Part shown: positions 26,910 through 49,712 of the stretch, one piece after another
Position numbering within the stretch: position 1 is the stretch's first letter
Layout: each line of letters opens with the position of its first letter
Source of the DNA: a candidate division TM6 bacterium GW2011_GWF2_43_87
GTDB lineage: Bacteria > Babelota > Babeliae > Babelales > Babelaceae
NCBI GenBank assembly: GCA_001000065.1
Contig: LCGZ01000003.1
Location: 124,001 to 188,000, forward strand
DNA: 64,000 nt
Reading direction: 5' to 3'
Translations under genes and position numbers: made by a program
The notes under the pieces: model-generated
The model's input: only the letters and a program-made list of their open reading frames with translations
Databases searched by the model: none
Told to the model about the DNA's origin: nothing

Positions 26910-27986
26910 TTATGTTGTCGCAATGTTTTTTAGAGAGCGTGCTAGTGGCTCAAGTACCTGCGCCGCTATAGAGGCCTCTTCCTTATCTTTTCGCCGATAG
27001 AAAAACAGATACCCATTCTTAGCAATGGCATTTTCCATACCAGCCAGATCACTCACCAAAGTAATCGAACTATCATTACAATAGTACCAGGACCGATTAG
27101 AATCATACTGATCCTTTATATAGGCCGTATAATGGCCAGAACTTGTCAACGGACCCAAATGCAAAGACACACCAATCAAATTATACTGCGCTACCGATTT
27201 CAAAGGTGCATCATGTACAAAGCTTCTTAAATCAATCTCAAACGCTGGCGCTACAGCGCGGGCCACGCGTGTCGGCAAAGCAACCTCCGGAGGAGTTAGA
27301 TACCGCTTTAAATTTATAATCAAAAACTCGGGCAAGTTTCCTGCCAACTGACGCATCACTACCGCTACTTCACGTTTTTTGGAAATGTCACCAATTTCCT
27401 CATACTCCAGGTCAGGGTCAATGACACCCGAAAAATATTTTTCAAGACAACCCTTAAGCGTGTCACTCTCCGGTGAGAGTAGCAAAAAAACTTCGGGAGT
27501 AAAAAGCTTTACCACCGTATTACGCTTAACAAATGCATTCTTAGCATTGTTCAAGCCATACACAACGCGACACTCCGTACTATTTACTTTAGATGCAACA
27601 ACGGTTCTCAGACCAAAAATTTGCCCTAGAGGAATAACTAGATCCTCCTGATTCCCCGCAACCATCCCACAACTCGCGCCCTCTGCAATCATCTCATTAT
27701 AAAGAGACACAATCTTATTATCTTCCTTCTCTCCTTTATAAAAACTCTGCACCACATCCTTATAAGCTTTCATAACTGCATCACCGCCAACATTTTCACT
27801 GAATAACGCAACGGTCAATGATTGCATATTGTACAAATTTTGCAAAAGTGAATTAAAAAAACAGATATTGCTTAACCCATATTGAAAATTAAAAAGACTT
27901 GGAGGGACCGCAAAAACAGACACTCCCAAAAAGCTCACACTCAGCACCAACAAAAAAATCGGTCGTAAAAAACATCGTACATTCAT
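26910..27986 (-). CDS. exported ubiquitin-specific protease (C19 family)
   Basis: 358 residues with a signal peptide (FLRPIFLLVLSVSFLGVSVFA). Cys box YGLSNICFFNSLLQNLYN with catalytic Cys42; a partial QxDxxxF-like QEDLV; PEFLIINLKRY; His box SGHYTAYIKD with His285; YYCNDSSI with Asp305; and the terminal GYLFFYRRK. These are the landmarks of eukaryotic USP deubiquitinases. It removes ubiquitin from proteins; bacteria generally lack ubiquitin, so a host target is likely. No zinc-binding insert is obvious and the protein is short for a USP. The tail ends LARSLKNIATT. The stop codon abuts the Shine-Dalgarno of the next gene, so they are co-transcribed. Confidence 0.9.
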   Translation of the reverse strand: MNVRCFLRPIFLLVLSVSFLGVSVFAVPPSLFNFQYGLSNICFFNSLLQNLYNMQSLTVALFSENVGGDAVMKAYKDVVQSFYKGEKEDNKIVSLYNEMIAEGASCGMVAGNQEDLVIPLGQIFGLRTVVASKVNSTECRVVYGLNNAKNAFVKRNTVVKLFTPEVFLLLSPESDTLKGCLEKYFSGVIDPDLEYEEIGDISKKREVAVVMRQLAGNLPEFLIINLKRYLTPPEVALPTRVARAVAPAFEIDLRSFVHDAPLKSVAQYNLIGVSLHLGPLTSSGHYTAYIKDQYDSNRSWYYCNDSSITLVSDLAGMENAIAKNGYLFFYRRKDKEEASIAAQVLEPLARSLKNIATT

Positions 27987-29696: not shown

Positions 29697-30635
29697 TTAG
29701 GATTGAGCTATTGCACGTAATGCATGCGCGAAGCTATCAAATGATGTGTCTTTGCGGACGTAGAAGAAGGCGGCGGTAATAGATGCTACTTTATCTCCAA
29801 CTGGAATAGCAGTGCCCATATCTTGAATCTTAGTCCCACCACATGCCCACCAGTGAGAAGCATCCCCGCGCACATCGCGAATAAGAGCTACGCTTTGCCC
29901 TGGAGCCAATACTTGAGTTATTGGATCCGCCACCCCAAACAAATAATTTAATTTCCCAACCAGTTCATACTTAGTATTCCCCTTTGGATTGTCGACAAAA
30001 TCCTTGACGTCTAATTCAAGTGTAGGAGTCGTTACTCTTTGCAATTTCTGAACATCACCATCAGTAGAAGCATTAAAGTGTGAACCTATAACTAAAATAT
30101 CGCCACATCCTCCCTGGGGCTTTTCCGTCGGCTTCTTTTGGAAATAATCAACACAAGCTTTTTGAATATCAACGTTCGCACCTGTATCTATTACCAACTC
30201 TATCCCATTTGTAACTACACCGTTTTTAAGTGGAATTTCAAAGAGTTTTTTAATATCAGGAGAAACATTCCACAACCCGTCTAACAATTTTTCTGCCAAA
30301 GATAAAGCGCTGAAAACATCAAAGACAGACCCTGGAGTTATTGTCGAGGCAACTCCATCAACACCGGCCTTCGCATCCCCCACAGGAGTGCTAGTCAATG
30401 CCCCTACTAACGCAGCAAACTTTCCAGACACATCCCCACTAGGAAATACGGTTAAATCTTTCTTCATAACGTCTATCAACGGCACTAGATTGTAAAAACA
30501 TTGGATAACCGAAATACAATAAGAAAGATCTTTGTTTGTCGGGATAGGCAATACAGGAGGATTCCCGCTACACGCCACAGACCCGAGCAGCACCGCCACC
30601 CCCAGTAAATTACTCCACATTTTTTTTGCACTCAT
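29697..30635 (-). CDS. USP-like lipoprotein with lost catalytic residues
   Basis: 312 residues. Signal peptide with lipobox-like SVAC (Cys about 22). The N-terminus DLSYCISVIQCFYN aligns with the USP Cys box, placing Ser38 at the catalytic position and Cys40 two residues later. The segment from SVALIRD to HWWACGGTKI aligns without gaps to YTAYIKD to SWYYCNDSSI of the 26910 USP; the catalytic His becomes Gln247 and the Asp becomes Gly. AFFYVRKD matches LFFYRRKD, and the tail FAHALRAIAQS matches LARSLKNIATT. It is a diverged paralogue, very likely a pseudo-deubiquitinase. Start: aaggg then ttgtc before ATG. Convergent with murD. Confidence 0.8.
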   Translation of the reverse strand: MSAKKMWSNLLGVAVLLGSVACSGNPPVLPIPTNKDLSYCISVIQCFYNLVPLIDVMKKDLTVFPSGDVSGKFAALVGALTSTPVGDAKAGVDGVASTITPGSVFDVFSALSLAEKLLDGLWNVSPDIKKLFEIPLKNGVVTNGIELVIDTGANVDIQKACVDYFQKKPTEKPQGGCGDILVIGSHFNASTDGDVQKLQRVTTPTLELDVKDFVDNPKGNTKYELVGKLNYLFGVADPITQVLAPGQSVALIRDVRGDASHWWACGGTKIQDMGTAIPVGDKVASITAAFFYVRKDTSFDSFAHALRAIAQS

Positions 30636-30765: not shown

Positions 30766-31887
30766 ATGGAACAGACAAAAAAATTTTTAACCACGTTTCT
30801 TACCCTAGTGGCCTTACTTATCGTAATAGGCCTCATATTTATCTATTCCGCAAGTTCAGTTTATGCCCTAGAAACCTTAGGCAACGCCAGCTTCTTTGTC
30901 AGAAAACAAGCGATAGGACTTATATTAGGGCTCATTGGCATGGGAGTCATCATCCTCCTTCCCTTAGAACTTATACGCAAACTTTCCCCACTCCTCTTTA
31001 TAGGTAGCCTAGCGCTAACCTATGCCACCCTGCTCCCCGGCATTGGCATCATGCTCAATGGGTCACACCGCTGGCTCTCAATCGGAGGAATCCTCTTCCA
31101 GCCAAGTGAGCTACTCAAAGTCTTTACCCTTTTATTTTTGGCCAACTATATTGAACGCACCCAGTTTAACCTCCGCTCATTTTTCTACGGATATGTCCCC
31201 TTTCTATGCATAGTGGGAGTCGCATTACTAGTACTCCTAAAACAGCCAGACTTTGGACAAGCCGTAACCCTAGGGTTTACCTCTTTAGCCCTATTTTTCG
31301 TAGCACAAGGCAACTTGCTCCACCTCTCCATAACCGGATTAATTGGCGCCATAGGAGCTGTCATCCTTGTAGTACTAAAACCCTATCGCTTACAACGCAT
31401 TCTCGTATTCTTAAATCCCTGGGATGATCCGCAAGGCGCAGGATTTCAAATTATTCAATCTCTGGTTGCAATTGGATCTGGGGGACTCTGGGGATTAGGA
31501 ATAACCCATTCAAAACAAAAATTCTTCTATCTACCTATGCAACACACCGATTTTATCTTTTCGGTCATCGCCGAAGAGACCGGTTTTATAGGAGCTGCAA
31601 TTCTCATAAGTATCTTCTTACTCCTGCTTATAACCGGCATCCGACTCGCACGCAGCCTAGAAAACGAATTTTCACAACTGACTATTCTCGGATTTGTCTA
31701 TCTCTTGAGCCTTCAAGCTATTGTTAACATCTTCGTCGCTTCGGGACTTGCACCAACCAAAGGCATCGGCCTTCCATTTGTAAGTTTTGGAAGTTCCTCC
31801 CTAATTTGTAGTCTTATTATGGTGGGTATCATCACCAATTGCGCCCTCGAAGGCAATGAAAAAAGTCATCTAAACCCCTCTATATAA
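30766..31887 (+). CDS. ftsW: SEDS peptidoglycan polymerase FtsW
   Basis: 373 residues, about ten membrane segments. Family landmarks: IYSASS in the first segment, GSHRWLSIGGILFQPSELLKV, KQPDFGQA (Asp of the SEDS active site), IIQSLVAIGSGGLWGLG, FFYLPMQHTDFIFSVIAEETG, and GIGLPFVSFGSSS. It polymerises glycan strands at division (or elongation, if RodA). FtsW is preferred because murD lies 1.1 kb upstream, but RodA cannot be excluded. The coding strand is C-rich and G-poor. Confidence 0.9.
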   Translation: MEQTKKFLTTFLTLVALLIVIGLIFIYSASSVYALETLGNASFFVRKQAIGLILGLIGMGVIILLPLELIRKLSPLLFIGSLALTYATLLPGIGIMLNGSHRWLSIGGILFQPSELLKVFTLLFLANYIERTQFNLRSFFYGYVPFLCIVGVALLVLLKQPDFGQAVTLGFTSLALFFVAQGNLLHLSITGLIGAIGAVILVVLKPYRLQRILVFLNPWDDPQGAGFQIIQSLVAIGSGGLWGLGITHSKQKFFYLPMQHTDFIFSVIAEETGFIGAAILISIFLLLLITGIRLARSLENEFSQLTILGFVYLLSLQAIVNIFVASGLAPTKGIGLPFVSFGSSSLICSLIMVGIITNCALEGNEKSHLNPSI

Positions 31888-31963
31888 ACCTTTCAGATCG
31901 GCTAAAAGGTACATTTCAACTCACCGCGACACCCCCCTATACCACCCACGGCCCTTCACCCTA

Positions 31964-31992
31964 TTGCCAGAGTTCTAGAAACTCAGTATCCT
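31964..31992 (+). promoter_or_regulatory. candidate promoter of the small-ORF cluster
   Basis: TTGCCA at 31964-31969, a 17-bp spacer and TATCCT at 31987-31992. Predicted transcription starts about 40 nt before the 57-codon ORF at 32042. The segment 31888-31963 holds nothing else recognisable. Confidence 0.4.
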
Positions 31993-32041
31993 ATTCCTCG
32001 GTGTTGAAAAGTACACCAAAAACGGGGAGATACTAGTCACT

Positions 32042-32215
32042 ATGAAGTACGTCTCAACAGCGCGCATTATCGCTGACATACAAACCTATCATCTAATCCC
32101 CTGTCGCGCTCAAAACACCATTCTATACCCTATAAAACTTCACGGCTCCTTTAAAGAGCATCTCTTAACTTTGCAACAAAACCTTAATACTATTGCCGAA
32201 GGATTTTTCCTATGA
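32042..32215 (+). CDS. 57-residue protein at the head of the microprotein cluster
   Basis: ATG 32042 is preceded by ggggag (spacing about 12). The product begins MKYVSTARIIADIQTYHLIP and ends IAEGFFL; it is not obviously a membrane protein. Its TGA overlaps the ATG of the next ORF (ATGA at 32212-32215), and the Shine-Dalgarno of that ORF lies inside it, both supporting a real coupled gene. No family recognised. Confidence 0.5.
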   Translation: MKYVSTARIIADIQTYHLIPCRAQNTILYPIKLHGSFKEHLLTLQQNLNTIAEGFFL

Positions 32216-32292
32216 GTATGTACAAAATATTAGTCATCGTGGTTGTTATCGTCGCGTTGTTAGGCCTCGCTCGTTATATGGGCTGGATGTAA
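32212..32292 (+). CDS. 26-residue single-pass membrane microprotein (copy 1)
   Basis: A strong Shine-Dalgarno (aagga) lies eight bases before ATG 32212. The product starts MSMYKILVIV, continues as an uninterrupted Val/Ile/Leu helix and ends LARYMGWM. The next ORF encodes a near-identical protein, and conserved duplication at this length argues for selection on the peptide. Single transmembrane helix predicted by composition. Function unknown. Confidence 0.75.
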   Translation: MSMYKILVIVVVIVALLGLARYMGWM

Positions 32293-32309
32293 GAAAGGAA
32301 TTTGAGAAT

Positions 32310-32390
32310 ATGGATATGTACAAAATATTGACCATCGTAGTTATCGTTATTGCATTGATAGCCCTTGCTCGTTATATGGGCTGGGTGTAA
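32310..32390 (+). CDS. 26-residue single-pass membrane microprotein (copy 2)
   Basis: ATG 32310 has gaaagga upstream. The product starts MDMYKILTIV and ends LARYMGWV; 19 of 26 residues equal copy 1, with the differences conservative or in the hydrophobic core. DNA differs at many third positions, the pattern of protein-level selection. The gap to copy 1 is 17 bp. Confidence 0.75.
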   Translation: MDMYKILTIVVIVIALIALARYMGWV

Positions 32391-32396
32391 TATCTC

Positions 32397-32483
32397 ATGA
32401 TAATGAACATGTATGTATGGATTGTACTTGCACTCGTAGCAGTACTATCGATAATTTATTTCATGCGTTGCACCTGTAAATAG
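32397..32483 (+). CDS. 28-residue single-pass membrane microprotein
   Basis: ATG 32397 (or in-frame ATGs at 32403 or 32409) opens a frame starting MIMNMYVWIVLALVAV and ending MRCTCK, with a cysteine pair at the C-terminus. Only 6 bp separate it from copy 2. No clear Shine-Dalgarno; coupling to the upstream ORF is possible. It shares the MY-then-hydrophobic-helix plan of its neighbours. Confidence 0.6.
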   Translation: MIMNMYVWIVLALVAVLSIIYFMRCTCK

Positions 32484-32518
32484 TACAACGTTATTTTTAC
32501 ATAAAGGAGATCAGTCCC

Positions 32519-32602
32519 ATGACAAATAATATGTATCTTATGATAGCAATCGGCGTAGTTATTTTCTGTTTAATCATTTACTACGCATTCTTCAACAAAT
32601 AA
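32519..32602 (+). CDS. 27-residue single-pass membrane microprotein
   Basis: An excellent Shine-Dalgarno (aaggaga, 32504-32510) lies eight bases before ATG 32519. The product starts MTNNMYLMIAIGVVIF and ends YYAFFNK. It is the last of the cluster and is followed by a terminator 18 bp later, so the group forms one transcription unit. Function unknown. Confidence 0.75.
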   Translation: MTNNMYLMIAIGVVIFCLIIYYAFFNK

Positions 32603-32619
32603 GAAGACTACCTCAAATC

Positions 32620-32652
32620 AAGGGCCACTGACGTTTTTCAGAGGCCCTTTTA
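32620..32652 (+). terminator. terminator of the microprotein cluster
   Basis: aagggcc (32620-32626) pairs with ggccctt (32643-32649); an inner ctga/tcag extends the stem past one mismatch, and TTT follows. Confidence 0.75.
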
Positions 32653-32684
32653 AATACTCTTTTGAAGCTAAGAAGGAAAAAACT

Positions 32685-33107
32685 ATGACACCTGCCATAA
32701 CCAACATAACCCCCAATCTAACGGTTAAAAACGTTCAAGAAAGCATCGAATTCTACACAAAGCTAGGCTTTTCACTTCGCATAGCTATCACAGACAAAAA
32801 AGAATTTCACCAGGCGCTGGATAAAGCCTCACATTATATCTATGCACAAGTAACCATAGGCAACCTCGAAATTATGTTGCAAAGCAAAGAAAGCGTTATA
32901 GAAGACAATCCCTTCTTAAAAAATCTTTCTATTGCATCGTCCATAACCTTGTTTTGCGAAGTAACTGGTGTCGAAGCCTTTTTCGCGTCGCTCAAAGGGA
33001 AAGTAGAAATCGTTAAGCCCCTTAATACGACGTGGTATGGCATGCAAGAATTTTACATCCGTGATAACAATGGATATATTCTTGGATTTGCAGAAAAGGC
33101 AAAATAA
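32685..33107 (+). CDS. VOC (glyoxalase/bleomycin-resistance) superfamily protein
   Basis: 140 residues. The N-terminus (ITPNLTVKNVQESIEFYTKLGFSLR) and C-terminus (MQEFYIRDNNGYILGFAEK) are the paired beta-alpha-beta-beta-beta modules of the VOC fold. The terminal Glu-type metal ligand position is shifted (GYILGFAE), so the activity cannot be assigned. Cytoplasmic. aagaagga precedes ATG 32685. Confidence 0.85.
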   Translation: MTPAITNITPNLTVKNVQESIEFYTKLGFSLRIAITDKKEFHQALDKASHYIYAQVTIGNLEIMLQSKESVIEDNPFLKNLSIASSITLFCEVTGVEAFFASLKGKVEIVKPLNTTWYGMQEFYIRDNNGYILGFAEKAK

Positions 33108-33126
33108 CCACAAAAAGGCCTCTTCT

Positions 33127-34782
33127 ATGCACACAAAACAAATTTTATATCCGCTAGTTGCAGCAACCATTCTAATCACGCCCCTACACGGCCTAAAATC
33201 TGCCCCAGAAGAGGCCCTCGTTTTAGAACAGCTTGCACAGTGTCTCGAAAATATTGCAAAAACTCCTGCAAGCCCATTTTTCTTAAAACCCAGCACCGTT
33301 ATTGCTACATTAAAAGAGATTCCCGGAGCACTAACTAGTCAAGATGACACCACCCGTGTTTATCAGATTCAATCCGCTACACAGGGTGGCAATGAATGCT
33401 GGATTTACGGAACACGTAACCCTCTGTTTATGGCACAATTATTCCTTGCACAAGACAAGGCTGAAATTAAAAAACTCTATGAAGCTATGGTCAATCCAGT
33501 TTTTGCAGAAAATTTTGCAACGCGAATCTACTCCCTAAAGACAGTTACCATGTATGGTCAAGCTGGACCACTCTACCAATTAAACGCGGACAAGCAGGGT
33601 GCCATCCCCGAACACAACAAAGATTTTATATTCGATGACAAAGAATTACCAGCCAACACCCCCCTTATAACACCCAAAGCCTACCCATCTCTTTTTGCCT
33701 ATGCTTTTTTCAACACCCTAGAATCTACGGACACTCCAAACAAATTAATGCCCTTGATAAAAGATAGAGAAAAAATAAAGGACGATTCCCTACTTTTGCA
33801 GTATGCAGACGATGTACTCATGTGCGCCAAAAATTCTATAGTATTTGACCTGTTAGAAAAGTTGGCAACCGATGACTCCTTCACCTTCATTTCATTTTTC
33901 TTCAATGAAAATATTGGTATTCTTCACCGAGCCGCACTCATTGTTGCTAAAGAAAAAAACGAGAAAAACAACAACGACTATTTCTACCTTTTCGCTGATT
34001 CTCTTGGAGGCTCCCCACCAGAGAACGAGATAAAAAGACTCAACAGACTTCTAAAAAATCCGACCTATTTATCCGAAATAAAACTTAGAACCGCCGTACT
34101 AGCAAGCCCACAACTTTCGTCTATCGAACAAAAAAAAGACGATCTGCCAGACCTACTAAATAAGAGCACACAGATCTGGTTCTCGGAGCCAACCCCACAA
34201 TCTGTAAAAGAGATAGGACAAGCTCTTACAAATCTAGAAGACCTATACAACAACCAACTCGCTTCACAAATAGCATCTATTACCGTTTACTACGCCACCA
34301 TAAAGAAAGACCTACCAACCTATAACACACTCCCGATCTTCCAAACCTACTATAAACCATTCTTAAATGAGTTCTTACCACCTAAGAAAAAACTGTATAT
34401 AAATCTGCTTTCCAATGCAAACTTCCCCAAATTTTTCACTCAACTCGAAGAGTTTGCAAAGAAAGTGGCCGAACACCTAGACACAACTATAAAACAAAAA
34501 ATGATTGAAAAACTAGAAGAAGATATCAAGAAAACAAAAAACCGTATTGAACAATCTAAACAGGATATAAAAAACAATAAATATCCCAAACTTGCCAAAA
34601 ATATCGTCGATGCGCTGACCATAAAACTCAAGAACTTAGATTGGGAATATGGTGAAATTGACCTAAAAATTAAACAACACCGCAAAACACTAAAGACCAT
34701 TACAGAAGAAACAATCCCCACAATAGAAAAGAAATATTCAGACCTTCTCTTGAAAATACAAGATATTCCCAACAGCTTTTGA
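33127..34782 (+). CDS. exported candidate papain-fold cysteine protease with coiled-coil tail
   Basis: 551 residues from ATG 33127 (aaaaagg eight bases upstream); a longer frame from 33037 overlaps the VOC gene and lacks a Shine-Dalgarno. Signal peptide MHTKQILYPLVAATILITPLHG. QGGNECWIYGTRNPLF places Cys91 in a papain-like context; His267 (LHRAALIVA) and Asp291 (YLFADSLGG) follow in Cys-His-Asp order, spaced as in papain-like or Ulp-like folds. The C-terminal 130 residues are a Lys/Glu-rich coiled coil. Residues about 33-50 carry LEQLAQCLENIAKT, similar to the tail motif of the USP proteins. Family not recognised, so protease activity is inferred. Confidence 0.7.
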   Translation: MHTKQILYPLVAATILITPLHGLKSAPEEALVLEQLAQCLENIAKTPASPFFLKPSTVIATLKEIPGALTSQDDTTRVYQIQSATQGGNECWIYGTRNPLFMAQLFLAQDKAEIKKLYEAMVNPVFAENFATRIYSLKTVTMYGQAGPLYQLNADKQGAIPEHNKDFIFDDKELPANTPLITPKAYPSLFAYAFFNTLESTDTPNKLMPLIKDREKIKDDSLLLQYADDVLMCAKNSIVFDLLEKLATDDSFTFISFFFNENIGILHRAALIVAKEKNEKNNNDYFYLFADSLGGSPPENEIKRLNRLLKNPTYLSEIKLRTAVLASPQLSSIEQKKDDLPDLLNKSTQIWFSEPTPQSVKEIGQALTNLEDLYNNQLASQIASITVYYATIKKDLPTYNTLPIFQTYYKPFLNEFLPPKKKLYINLLSNANFPKFFTQLEEFAKKVAEHLDTTIKQKMIEKLEEDIKKTKNRIEQSKQDIKNNKYPKLAKNIVDALTIKLKNLDWEYGEIDLKIKQHRKTLKTITEETIPTIEKKYSDLLLKIQDIPNSF

Positions 34783-36646: not shown

Positions 36647-38695
36647 TTGAAAATTTTATTACGTACCCTACTTTCCAAAATCACACTGTCCCTACTTCTC
36701 TGCGGATCTCCAATCGCTGCAATGGATATTTTTAAAATTGAAGACCTTCTTAAATTTGAAGAAGATCAAAACAGCTTAAAAAAAGATGCTCAATCCCAGA
36801 CTTTCTCCATCCCTGACAAAATCCTATCTCAGAGCTCAGAGATTGAGAATGGCAAGTTCCAAAAAAACGTGAAATTTGTGCCGAAAAAAAAAGTAACCCC
36901 ACCCGCTCCTCATAAACCCCTAGCAAAAAAAATAACTCCGGAAGAACAGAAGTTATTAAATGAGAAAATAGTAGCAACAACAGACTATGCTTCCGTCTTA
37001 GATTTAATCAATAAAGGGGCAAATGTTAACGCGCGCAATAAAAAATCTTGTAATGAAACTCCACTGCACAATGCTACTAATCAACAAAAATTTAAAACCG
37101 TCGAACTACTTCTTGAACATGGTGCAGACGTCAATGCAACAAATGGGGAGGAGAAAACCGCCTTACACCTCTGTTGCGAACAAAATAACTACGAAATAGC
37201 TGAATTACTCATTAAACATCATGCAAACGTCAACATAGAAGATCAAGACGACAAAACCGCCCTGCTCCTCTGTTGCGAAAAAAAATGCTTCAAGATAGCT
37301 GAACTACTCATTAAACATCATGCAAACGTCAACTTAACATATACAAATGACAAAACCGCTTTACACCTCTGTTGCGAACAAAATAACTACACAATGGCTC
37401 AACTACTCATTGAGCATGGTGCAAACGTCAACTCAACATATTCAAACGGCAAAACCGCCTTGCTCATCTGTTGCGAAAACAAAAGATTCAAAATAGCTAA
37501 ACTACTCATTAAGCATAACGCAGACGTCAACGCAAAGTATGAAAACGGCCAAACCGCCCTGCACTTCTGTTGCAAAAACGATAACCCTGAAATGGTTGAA
37601 CTGCTCATTAATCACGGCGCAAACGTCAACGCAAAGTATAAAAAAGGCAAAACCACTCTGTATTGTAGCAGCCACAACAGTTCCGCCAAAATAACTGAAT
37701 TACTCATTATGCATGGCGCAAAAATAGACTCAAAGGATCAAGACGGCAAAACCCCTCTGTATCGAAACATCGAAAACAATAACACTGAAATAGCTAAACT
37801 GCTCATTGAGCATGGTGCAAACGTCAACTTAGCGTATACAAACGACGGAAACAACAAAACCGCCTTGCACCTCTGTTGCGAACAAAATAACTACAAAATA
37901 GCTGAATTACTCATTAAGCATGGCGCAGACGTCAATTTAAAAGATCAAGACAACAAAACCGCCTTCCACCTCTGTTGCGAAAGAAATAACTTCTCACTGG
38001 CTGAATTACTCATCAAGCACGACGCACAGGCTGATATAACCGACCTAACCTTGTGTTGCACACAAAGAAACGAATACCCAGAGACCTTAATTAAAACTCT
38101 AAAATACGTTCTTGAACGGAATGCAAATTTTTTTAGCCTTAATAAAAAATGTGACATCACTGAAGGATATAAAGTCGCTCTTAACCGCCTAAAAACTTGG
38201 CCGCCAGAATCCCTCGACCACCTATGCAAAAGCCTCATTCCTGTCAAAAAACAGACCTCGCCGCAACGAACAAGTCATTTTATCACCTTTTGCGTTTCAT
38301 CTTTAGCAGAGCAATTACAGCAAGGCAAACTTCCACTCACCGTTCCACCAACCGATACGATAATCAAAGGCATGTTAGAAACAATTCCAGATGCAGCAAA
38401 CCTAATTAAGCTGATAGAATTAGCAATGAATTACTATTTCCTCAAAGCCGACCAACAACCACTTGTCTCCACTACCATGCCCTGCCACAAACTCTCAGAA
38501 AAACAGTATCAACTCGCGCTCAAGTGGTTAGATTGTGAAGCCTTCCAAGTGCTTAAAATACTGACAGACCATAAAGAACTTCGCGGTTTCTTAAACAACC
38601 TTTTCAAAACCACTCAAAAGAAAGCACAACTTAAAGCCAAAAACCACTGTTTTAGTGATTTAAAAATCTATTTCAAAGACCCACGGTATATCTAA
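36647..38695 (+). CDS. exported ankyrin-repeat protein with Cys-Cys repeats
   Basis: 682 residues. Start codon is TTG 36647, seven bases after aaggaga; a signal peptide follows (KILLRTLLSKITLSLLLCGSPIAA). About ten ankyrin units span residues 115-466. In most of them the usual LAA is LCC (TALHLCCEQNNYEIAELLIKHHANV), giving a ladder of cysteine pairs. The repeats are also near-identical at DNA level (about 99-bp period). The C-terminal 200 residues are helical without a recognised family and differ from the VWFPG domain of the 545 and 4640 genes. Confidence 0.88.
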   Translation: MKILLRTLLSKITLSLLLCGSPIAAMDIFKIEDLLKFEEDQNSLKKDAQSQTFSIPDKILSQSSEIENGKFQKNVKFVPKKKVTPPAPHKPLAKKITPEEQKLLNEKIVATTDYASVLDLINKGANVNARNKKSCNETPLHNATNQQKFKTVELLLEHGADVNATNGEEKTALHLCCEQNNYEIAELLIKHHANVNIEDQDDKTALLLCCEKKCFKIAELLIKHHANVNLTYTNDKTALHLCCEQNNYTMAQLLIEHGANVNSTYSNGKTALLICCENKRFKIAKLLIKHNADVNAKYENGQTALHFCCKNDNPEMVELLINHGANVNAKYKKGKTTLYCSSHNSSAKITELLIMHGAKIDSKDQDGKTPLYRNIENNNTEIAKLLIEHGANVNLAYTNDGNNKTALHLCCEQNNYKIAELLIKHGADVNLKDQDNKTAFHLCCERNNFSLAELLIKHDAQADITDLTLCCTQRNEYPETLIKTLKYVLERNANFFSLNKKCDITEGYKVALNRLKTWPPESLDHLCKSLIPVKKQTSPQRTSHFITFCVSSLAEQLQQGKLPLTVPPTDTIIKGMLETIPDAANLIKLIELAMNYYFLKADQQPLVSTTMPCHKLSEKQYQLALKWLDCEAFQVLKILTDHKELRGFLNNLFKTTQKKAQLKAKNHCFSDLKIYFKDPRYI

Positions 38696-49044: not shown

Positions 49045-49623
49045 TTAAGCCTCCTTGCACCAACAAAAGACCTCTTTATGCGTCCCATCAAAAACCTGAA
49101 GGCTGAAATCCGACCCAACAACAGACTGACTAAATTCTACTTCGTACACATTTCGTTGGTGTGATGTTATGTGTGAACCTAGAATACCACGATACCCTCT
49201 ATCCAGAGTTGTCCCTAAGATTTTTTTAGGCGCATAACATTTGCCGCCCACCTCTAAGGTTAAACTCCAATCCTTCTGTTCCCCATCCATAAGAACTAAA
49301 AAGCTCGTTTTTTCTTGCTGCGCTTTTTCAAAATTAGCAACTGATTCTAAATCTCGCCCCACAATCTCGCAGTCTGTTAAACAGCCATACATAAGCCCTT
49401 CATGCGCTTTAAAGACCTTAGAATTAATCCAGAGTACATAGATAATATCAACTGTATTAAGATAATCGCGAATGGCCTGACAACGAACAAACTCTCGCGC
49501 CTCTTGCGCATAACAGACATCACACTGTTCTGCCTGCCGAAACGTACGTTGAATCCAACAGACATACCGCGTGCAGGAAGGAAATAAAATTAAAATTCCT
49601 AAAAACAACGCCAACCGCTTCAT
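49045..49623 (-). CDS. lipoprotein of unknown function
   Basis: 192 residues. Lipobox LFPSC (Cys about 17) after a short signal peptide. Several further cysteines (CDVCYAQEA, CLTDCE, FCWCKEA). The C-terminal half is beta-rich (LTLEVGGKCYAPKKILG, YEVEFSQSVVGSDFSLQVFDG). No family recognised. It is preceded by a coupled 30-residue ORF and followed without a gap by rpiB. Confidence 0.75.
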   Translation of the reverse strand: MKRLALFLGILILFPSCTRYVCWIQRTFRQAEQCDVCYAQEAREFVRCQAIRDYLNTVDIIYVLWINSKVFKAHEGLMYGCLTDCEIVGRDLESVANFEKAQQEKTSFLVLMDGEQKDWSLTLEVGGKCYAPKKILGTTLDRGYRGILGSHITSHQRNVYEVEFSQSVVGSDFSLQVFDGTHKEVFCWCKEA

Positions 49624-49712
49624 AGTTTTGTCCCTTTTTCATAAACTAAATAGATAGCCATCACGGCTAAGAGTAAAATAAGTATTCTCGCATTACAAGG
49701 ATTACACTCCAT
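49620..49712 (-). CDS. possible 30-residue membrane microprotein
   Basis: ATG 49712 opens a frame starting MECNPCNARILILLLAVMAI and ending YEKGTKL, a single hydrophobic helix with a CxxC-like N-terminus. Its TGA overlaps the ATG of the lipoprotein gene (ATGA), and aaagggac inside it serves as the Shine-Dalgarno of that gene. Its start codon overlaps the start of the divergent permease gene at 49711, which is unusual, so the call is tentative. Confidence 0.4.
   Translation of the reverse strand: MECNPCNARILILLLAVMAIYLVYEKGTKL

Follow-up and report, generated by a model that had tools for sequence, protein, structure and literature searches.

Gene organization behind ftsW

The region described here lies in a 64,000-nucleotide stretch of DNA (the window) from candidate division TM6 bacterium GW2011_GWF2_43_87, whose genome (G000) comprises 1.13 Mb in four contigs and is around 92% complete. 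On the forward strand, ftsW (30766–31887; FTSW_RODA_SPOVE, Pfam PF01098, E = 6e-99), the conserved 5′ neighbor and presumed operon member, precedes four consecutive ORFs, each encoding 26–28 amino acids with one hydrophobic helix: C1 (32212–32292; MSMYKILVIVVVIVALLGLARYMGWM), C2 (32310–32390; MDMYKILTIVVIVIALIALARYMGWV), A (32397–32483; MIMNMYVWIVLALVAVLSIIYFMRCTCK), in which a transmembrane helix is followed by a C-terminal R-C-x-C, and B (32505–32602, coding sequence 32519–32602; MTNNMYLMIAIGVVIFCLIIYYAFFNK). An xMY N-terminus is common to all four. Such a row of tandem hydrophobic-helix ORFs, as originally predicted, is well beyond chance. When the 797 bp that separate ftsW from the glyoxalase-family gene (31888–32684) were shuffled 3000 times with dinucleotides preserved and scored for hydrophobic ORFs of 22–40 residues, 43 of the shuffles contained one such ORF and none contained two or more, against four in the real region.

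Three of the four ORFs carry a Shine-Dalgarno sequence, in agreement with the original prediction, and a good one (AAAGGAG) lies directly 5′ of B. ORF A has no Shine-Dalgarno sequence of its own and starts 6 nt 3′ of the C2 stop codon, so that it is probably translationally coupled to C2. An intrinsic-terminator-like hairpin (32620–32651, forward strand; −16.9 kcal/mol, z = −3.2) closes the presumed operon; the terminator expected after B is thus a real hairpin, though its U-tract is short. The candidate promoter proposed ahead of the group did not hold up, the six promoter-like sites found being not above chance (4.6 expected).

The order murD–ftsW is retained across Dependentiae, and in the window the two genes are separated by an antisense insert. 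It encodes a ubiquitin carboxyl-terminal hydrolase-like protein (26910–27986, reverse strand; PF00443, E = 2e-24), next to a further ORF (29697–30635, reverse strand) whose resemblance to the N-terminus of such hydrolases is at chance level. Eukaryote-like proteins of this kind are frequent in intracellular symbionts, and the bacterium is symbiont-like. Downstream, the microprotein operon and pepA are separated by an insertion of a glyoxalase-family gene and a 551-residue orphan (32685–34782, forward strand). This spot is variable among relatives, because the nearest one (L005, see below) has a different gene there (349 amino acids, with a GHECGH motif). A long ankyrin-repeat-like protein (36647–38695, forward strand) adjoins pepA. 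Elsewhere in the window, a possible membrane microprotein of 30 amino acids with a Shine-Dalgarno sequence (MECNPCNARILILLLAVMAIYLVYEKGTKL; 49620–49712, reverse strand) overlaps the start of a 192-residue ORF (49045–49623, reverse strand).

Distribution of A and B in the phylum

The FtsW of the window is closest to that of Dependentiae/Babeliae, the nearest being from TM6 bacterium GW2011_GWE2_42_60 (L005), of the window's own genus. The genomes compared are incomplete MAGs (82–95%); the loci L005, L006, L009 and L046 belong to genomes G001, G007, G012 and G009, respectively. In searches of 101 genomes of the phylum we used single-sequence queries (the window's B alone and A alone), because profile E-values are circular for the sequences that built the profiles. 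B matched G001 (3.8e-8), G007 (9.8e-8), G012 (1.1e-5) and G009 (1.2e-5), and A matched G007 (2.4e-7) and G001 (5e-3), both at the syntenic place. The next matches to B had E-values of 0.012 and above; the most plausible of these, in G006, G097 and G015, were inspected and attributed to chance, as they lack a suitable start or lie over other genes. B is thus kept in five Babeliae genomes, including that of the window, and A in three, with B occurring without A in L009 and L046. The frames of A and B, whose loss in relatives had been named as the point on which the original prediction would fail, are therefore conserved.

All five B genes lie 3′ of ldh (in the window, in the place of ldh behind ftsW) and a short distance 5′ of a strong hairpin; the hairpins at this place in L005, L006, L009 and L046 differ in sequence. 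The five genomes form one branch of the FtsW tree (support 87/90). Numerous other Dependentiae (L010, L032, L052, L057 and L058 among them) have ftsW and pepA as convergent neighbors, in some cases less than 100 bp apart. An ldh–A–B block, lacking A in G009 and G012, stands between the two genes in no other clade than that of G000, G001, G007, G009 and G012. Among the ldh loci examined elsewhere in the phylum, none has such ORFs behind ldh. Based on these sequence comparisons, the predicted A/B block is shown to be limited to one Babeliae clade within the phylum.

The order ftsW then ldh is found in L005, L006, L009 and L046, and the slot that holds ldh in these relatives corresponds by synteny to 31888–32211 (forward strand) of the window, which is empty of ldh. 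No LDH match was found in the 92%-complete genome of the window, from which ldh has apparently been lost. This bears on the idea that A and B help the LDH of the same cassette, ldh, A and B having arrived together between ftsW and pepA. The absence of the ldh–A–B slot from other Dependentiae with convergent ftsW and pepA would fit such an arrival, as would the closeness of ldh to A or B (within ~170 bp) in four genomes. However, the window's genome retains A and B although ldh is apparently missing, and the two are therefore not dependent on LDH; in addition, ldh occurs elsewhere in the phylum with no such ORF behind it, and LDH is soluble. We consider a helper role for LDH improbable.

A 57-codon ORF (p57; 32042–32215, forward strand) had been taken as the first gene of an operon with its own promoter. 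The ATGA overlap of p57 with C1 is present, but no relatives of p57 were detected in our searches, and it is without support as a conserved gene; that it is a gene is doubtful. Moreover, in the relatives the microprotein genes directly follow ldh and have no detectable promoter of their own, which speaks against an operon beginning at p57. By eye and by position, p57 is plausible as a decayed C-terminus of LDH. In comparison with shuffled sequences, the similarity to the best of 28 LDHs was equaled in 16 of 300 cases, and further tests gave p-values of 0.18–0.81 and 0.14; p57 is not demonstrably an LDH remnant. Residues 6–24 of p57 (TARIIADIQTYHLIPCRAQ) weakly resemble a sequence, TARI.VSI.T.GLLKA.AQ, that recurs near other ldh loci (L165, L170 and L173), with E-values of ~1–3 that are probably due to chance.

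Selection on B and A

Between L009 and L046, LDH is 58% and FtsW 68% identical, and the untranslated flanks of B are largely unrelated. The B proteins, in contrast, are identical at 27 of 27 residues, and all 10 changes in their DNA are synonymous third-position changes (dN 0, dS ~1.2; p ~1e-7 for the synonymous excess). B is thus more constrained than the neighboring division and metabolic genes. We simulated the case in which residues 7–20 of B swap freely among hydrophobic residues until 10 synonymous changes have accrued; such selection for hydrophobicity only is expected to leave ~9 replacements, and none of 1200 runs left zero. In the wider pairs the synonymous excess of B is also seen (window and L006, p = 0.0009; window and L005, p = 0.006), and A has an excess of its own (p = 0.006). 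The invariance of B while its DNA drifts, together with the simulation, argues that B is translated and, as far as comparative sequence can tell, is under purifying selection that requires exact side chains. Conservation of exact residues in turn points to specific contacts made by the predicted helix, rather than to a generic greasy helix. The conserved positions define no single clear helical face (p = 0.15, with four distinct sequences only). N4, M8, V14, I19, Y21, Y22, F24 and F25 are invariant.

We regard B as almost certainly a real protein-coding gene, and A as very probably one. The central claim of the original prediction, that unannotated membrane microprotein genes exist here, is accordingly strong for B, good for A and moderate for C1 and C2.

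Duplication of C1 and C2, and their possible relationship to A and B

C1 and C2 are located in the vacated ldh region and are the two copies of a direct repeat of 82 nt (79% identity, spacing 98). Their tandem duplication bears out the paralogy claimed earlier, but 18 rather than 19 of the 26 residues are identical, and the 17 DNA differences, described as third-position changes, fall 7/3/7 on the three codon positions. The comparison of the dN/dS type suggested for the two copies gave seven synonymous and 10 nonsynonymous differences, a weak and borderline bias to synonymous change (binomial p = 0.05). No homologues of C1/C2 were found outside their own genome in the relatives searched.

This restriction to a single genome, with the borderline synonymous excess, is what would be expected if C1 and C2 were not functional proteins, being instead an unselected recent insertion of a duplicated segment in the vacated ldh slot, with only A and B real. 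Against this, both frames have stayed open despite 17 substitutions, and the extreme hydrophobicity (15-residue mean 3.4–3.5), the start sites and the ARYMGW end have been kept. We judge an unselected insertion to be the less likely reading, by a good distance, and C1 and C2 to be likely protein-coding genes.

Old paralogy is probable for A and B: hhalign pairs them with a probability of 96.6% over 23 columns, and shuffles gave p = 0.0005, or 0.007 with hydrophobic zones kept (0 of 4000 for the L006 pair). The similarity of C1/C2 to A and B is weak (p = 0.01–0.23), and C1/C2 may belong to the same family. A family of this kind might pack with itself instead of with a large partner, forming homo- or hetero-oligomers (a channel, a scaffold or a membrane-organizing array) by a tandem expansion from B to A to C1/C2. 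The paralogy of A and B, the C1/C2 duplication, the shared xMY N-terminus, the tight co-localization of the four genes and the exact conservation of B are all consistent with mutual packing. However, B stands alone in L009 and L046, so hetero-assembly is not required, and the link from C1/C2 to A and B is weak; we hold mutual packing to be unlikely.

Comparison with known small membrane proteins

Searches of PDB, NCBIfam, PHROG and PADLOC with the microproteins gave chance-level matches only, and those of phages, plasmids and viral contigs were empty or gave chance matches. PHROG 16709, an uncharacterized family of 27 positions, matches C2 with an E-value of 2e-4 over 20 residues, and no phage record matching C2 was found.

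The original prediction compared the genes with type I toxins and with cytochrome-oxidase-like small subunits. The microproteins resemble the toxins Ldr, Ibs, TisB and ShoB in being short, hydrophobic and sometimes in tandem, and membrane-active peptides silenced by an antisense RNA would, like Ldr or Ibs, have the size, hydrophobicity and tandem copies seen here. In contrast to such toxins, however, they show strict vertical synteny behind the housekeeping genes ftsW–ldh in five genomes, stringent residue conservation, with B more conserved than the flanking enzymes, and a good Shine-Dalgarno sequence immediately 5′ of B. Consensus scans detected neither a promoter of their own nor an antisense promoter above chance or conserved, and there was no Rfam match of note and no PADLOC match. 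The lack of a detectable antisense RNA or dedicated promoter, with the conserved synteny and exact residues, disfavors toxins, and we think it improbable that these genes encode them.

The oxidase comparison fared no better. CydA (PF01654) was found in none of 16 genomes, and heme-copper oxidase subunit I (PF00115) in none of G000–G009, with one partial match in another family; controls were positive in both searches. CydX- or CcoQ-type membership is not supported, the required oxidase not being found across the family. In addition, CydX is described as highly variable outside its core region, in contrast to the exact identity of B in two species. KdpF is not supported either, as no KdpABC neighborhood was found: no KdpA exceeded the cut-off, a weak sub-threshold partial match (20.7 bits, G000 C3:195882) lying outside the window. 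The missing oxidase and Kdp partners thus disfavor CydX- and KdpF-type membership. A also resembles the FeoB-associated Cys-rich proteins, with one helix and a short Cys-containing basic tail (R-C-x-C-K), but it has no Pfam match, PF12669 included, and FeoB in the family gave only sub-threshold matches in the GTPase region, none exceeding the model cut-off; this membership is likewise not supported.

Possible function

As a class, KdpF, CydX, TorE and AcrZ are single hydrophobic helices of ~29–56 amino acids. They either act on larger membrane proteins or have genes next to those of such proteins, and they are described as stabilizing or tuning membrane complexes (PMC6134056, PMC4325964, PMC7267776). 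Single-helix proteins of this size often pack with a specific protein, a mode for which the exact conservation of B also argues; TorE, KdpF and CydX are discussed in PMC6134056 and PMC4325964. No sequence relationship of these to the microproteins was detected. The microproteins nevertheless have one hydrophobic helix, are shorter than ~60 amino acids, are conserved and are co-encoded with larger genes, as is the rule in this class. Our tentative preference, which falls somewhat short of an even chance, is that A and B have a specific function, most plausibly as lineage-specific accessory or regulatory one-helix subunits of a larger membrane protein.

Under this proposal, A and B, and probably C1/C2, would be translated as single-pass membrane microproteins from the 3′ end of a murD–ftsW–(ldh) cell-wall operon ending at the intrinsic terminator. 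No promoter for B itself was detectable above chance or conserved in consensus scans of the locus and relatives; with its conserved place after ftsW/ldh, B is probably co-transcribed with these housekeeping genes. In both A and B the C-end carries a net charge of +1 to +3, as against no net positive charge at the N-end, and this distribution suggests that both are oriented N-outside, C-inside. Each helix would pack laterally on a larger membrane protein, stabilizing or tuning it as KdpF, CydX, TorE and AcrZ do theirs; both the lateral packing and the partner's identity are inferred. The operon context makes FtsW, or the reduced divisome, the first candidate partner. Since ftsW occurs throughout the phylum without A/B, these cannot be a general FtsW subunit, and any FtsW-linked role would be specific to this lineage.

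More speculatively, an expanding set of paralogous helices of 26–29 residues, assembling with each other with or without FtsW, might be a multi-helix membrane machine, composed of single helices each encoded by its own gene and specific to one Babeliae clade whose division apparatus is reduced; this we regard as improbable. Chromulinavorax destructans, of the same phylum, is described as having an fts set reduced to ftsA, K, L, W and Z, and peptidoglycan synthesis with a reduced divisome is described for the phylum (PMC6561590). Comparison of DNA sequences by itself suffices here to demonstrate genes of no more than 27 codons, in a phylum that is almost uncultured. If the FtsW machinery is the partner of the microproteins, these would represent a division factor specific to this lineage, in bacteria whose divisome is minimal.
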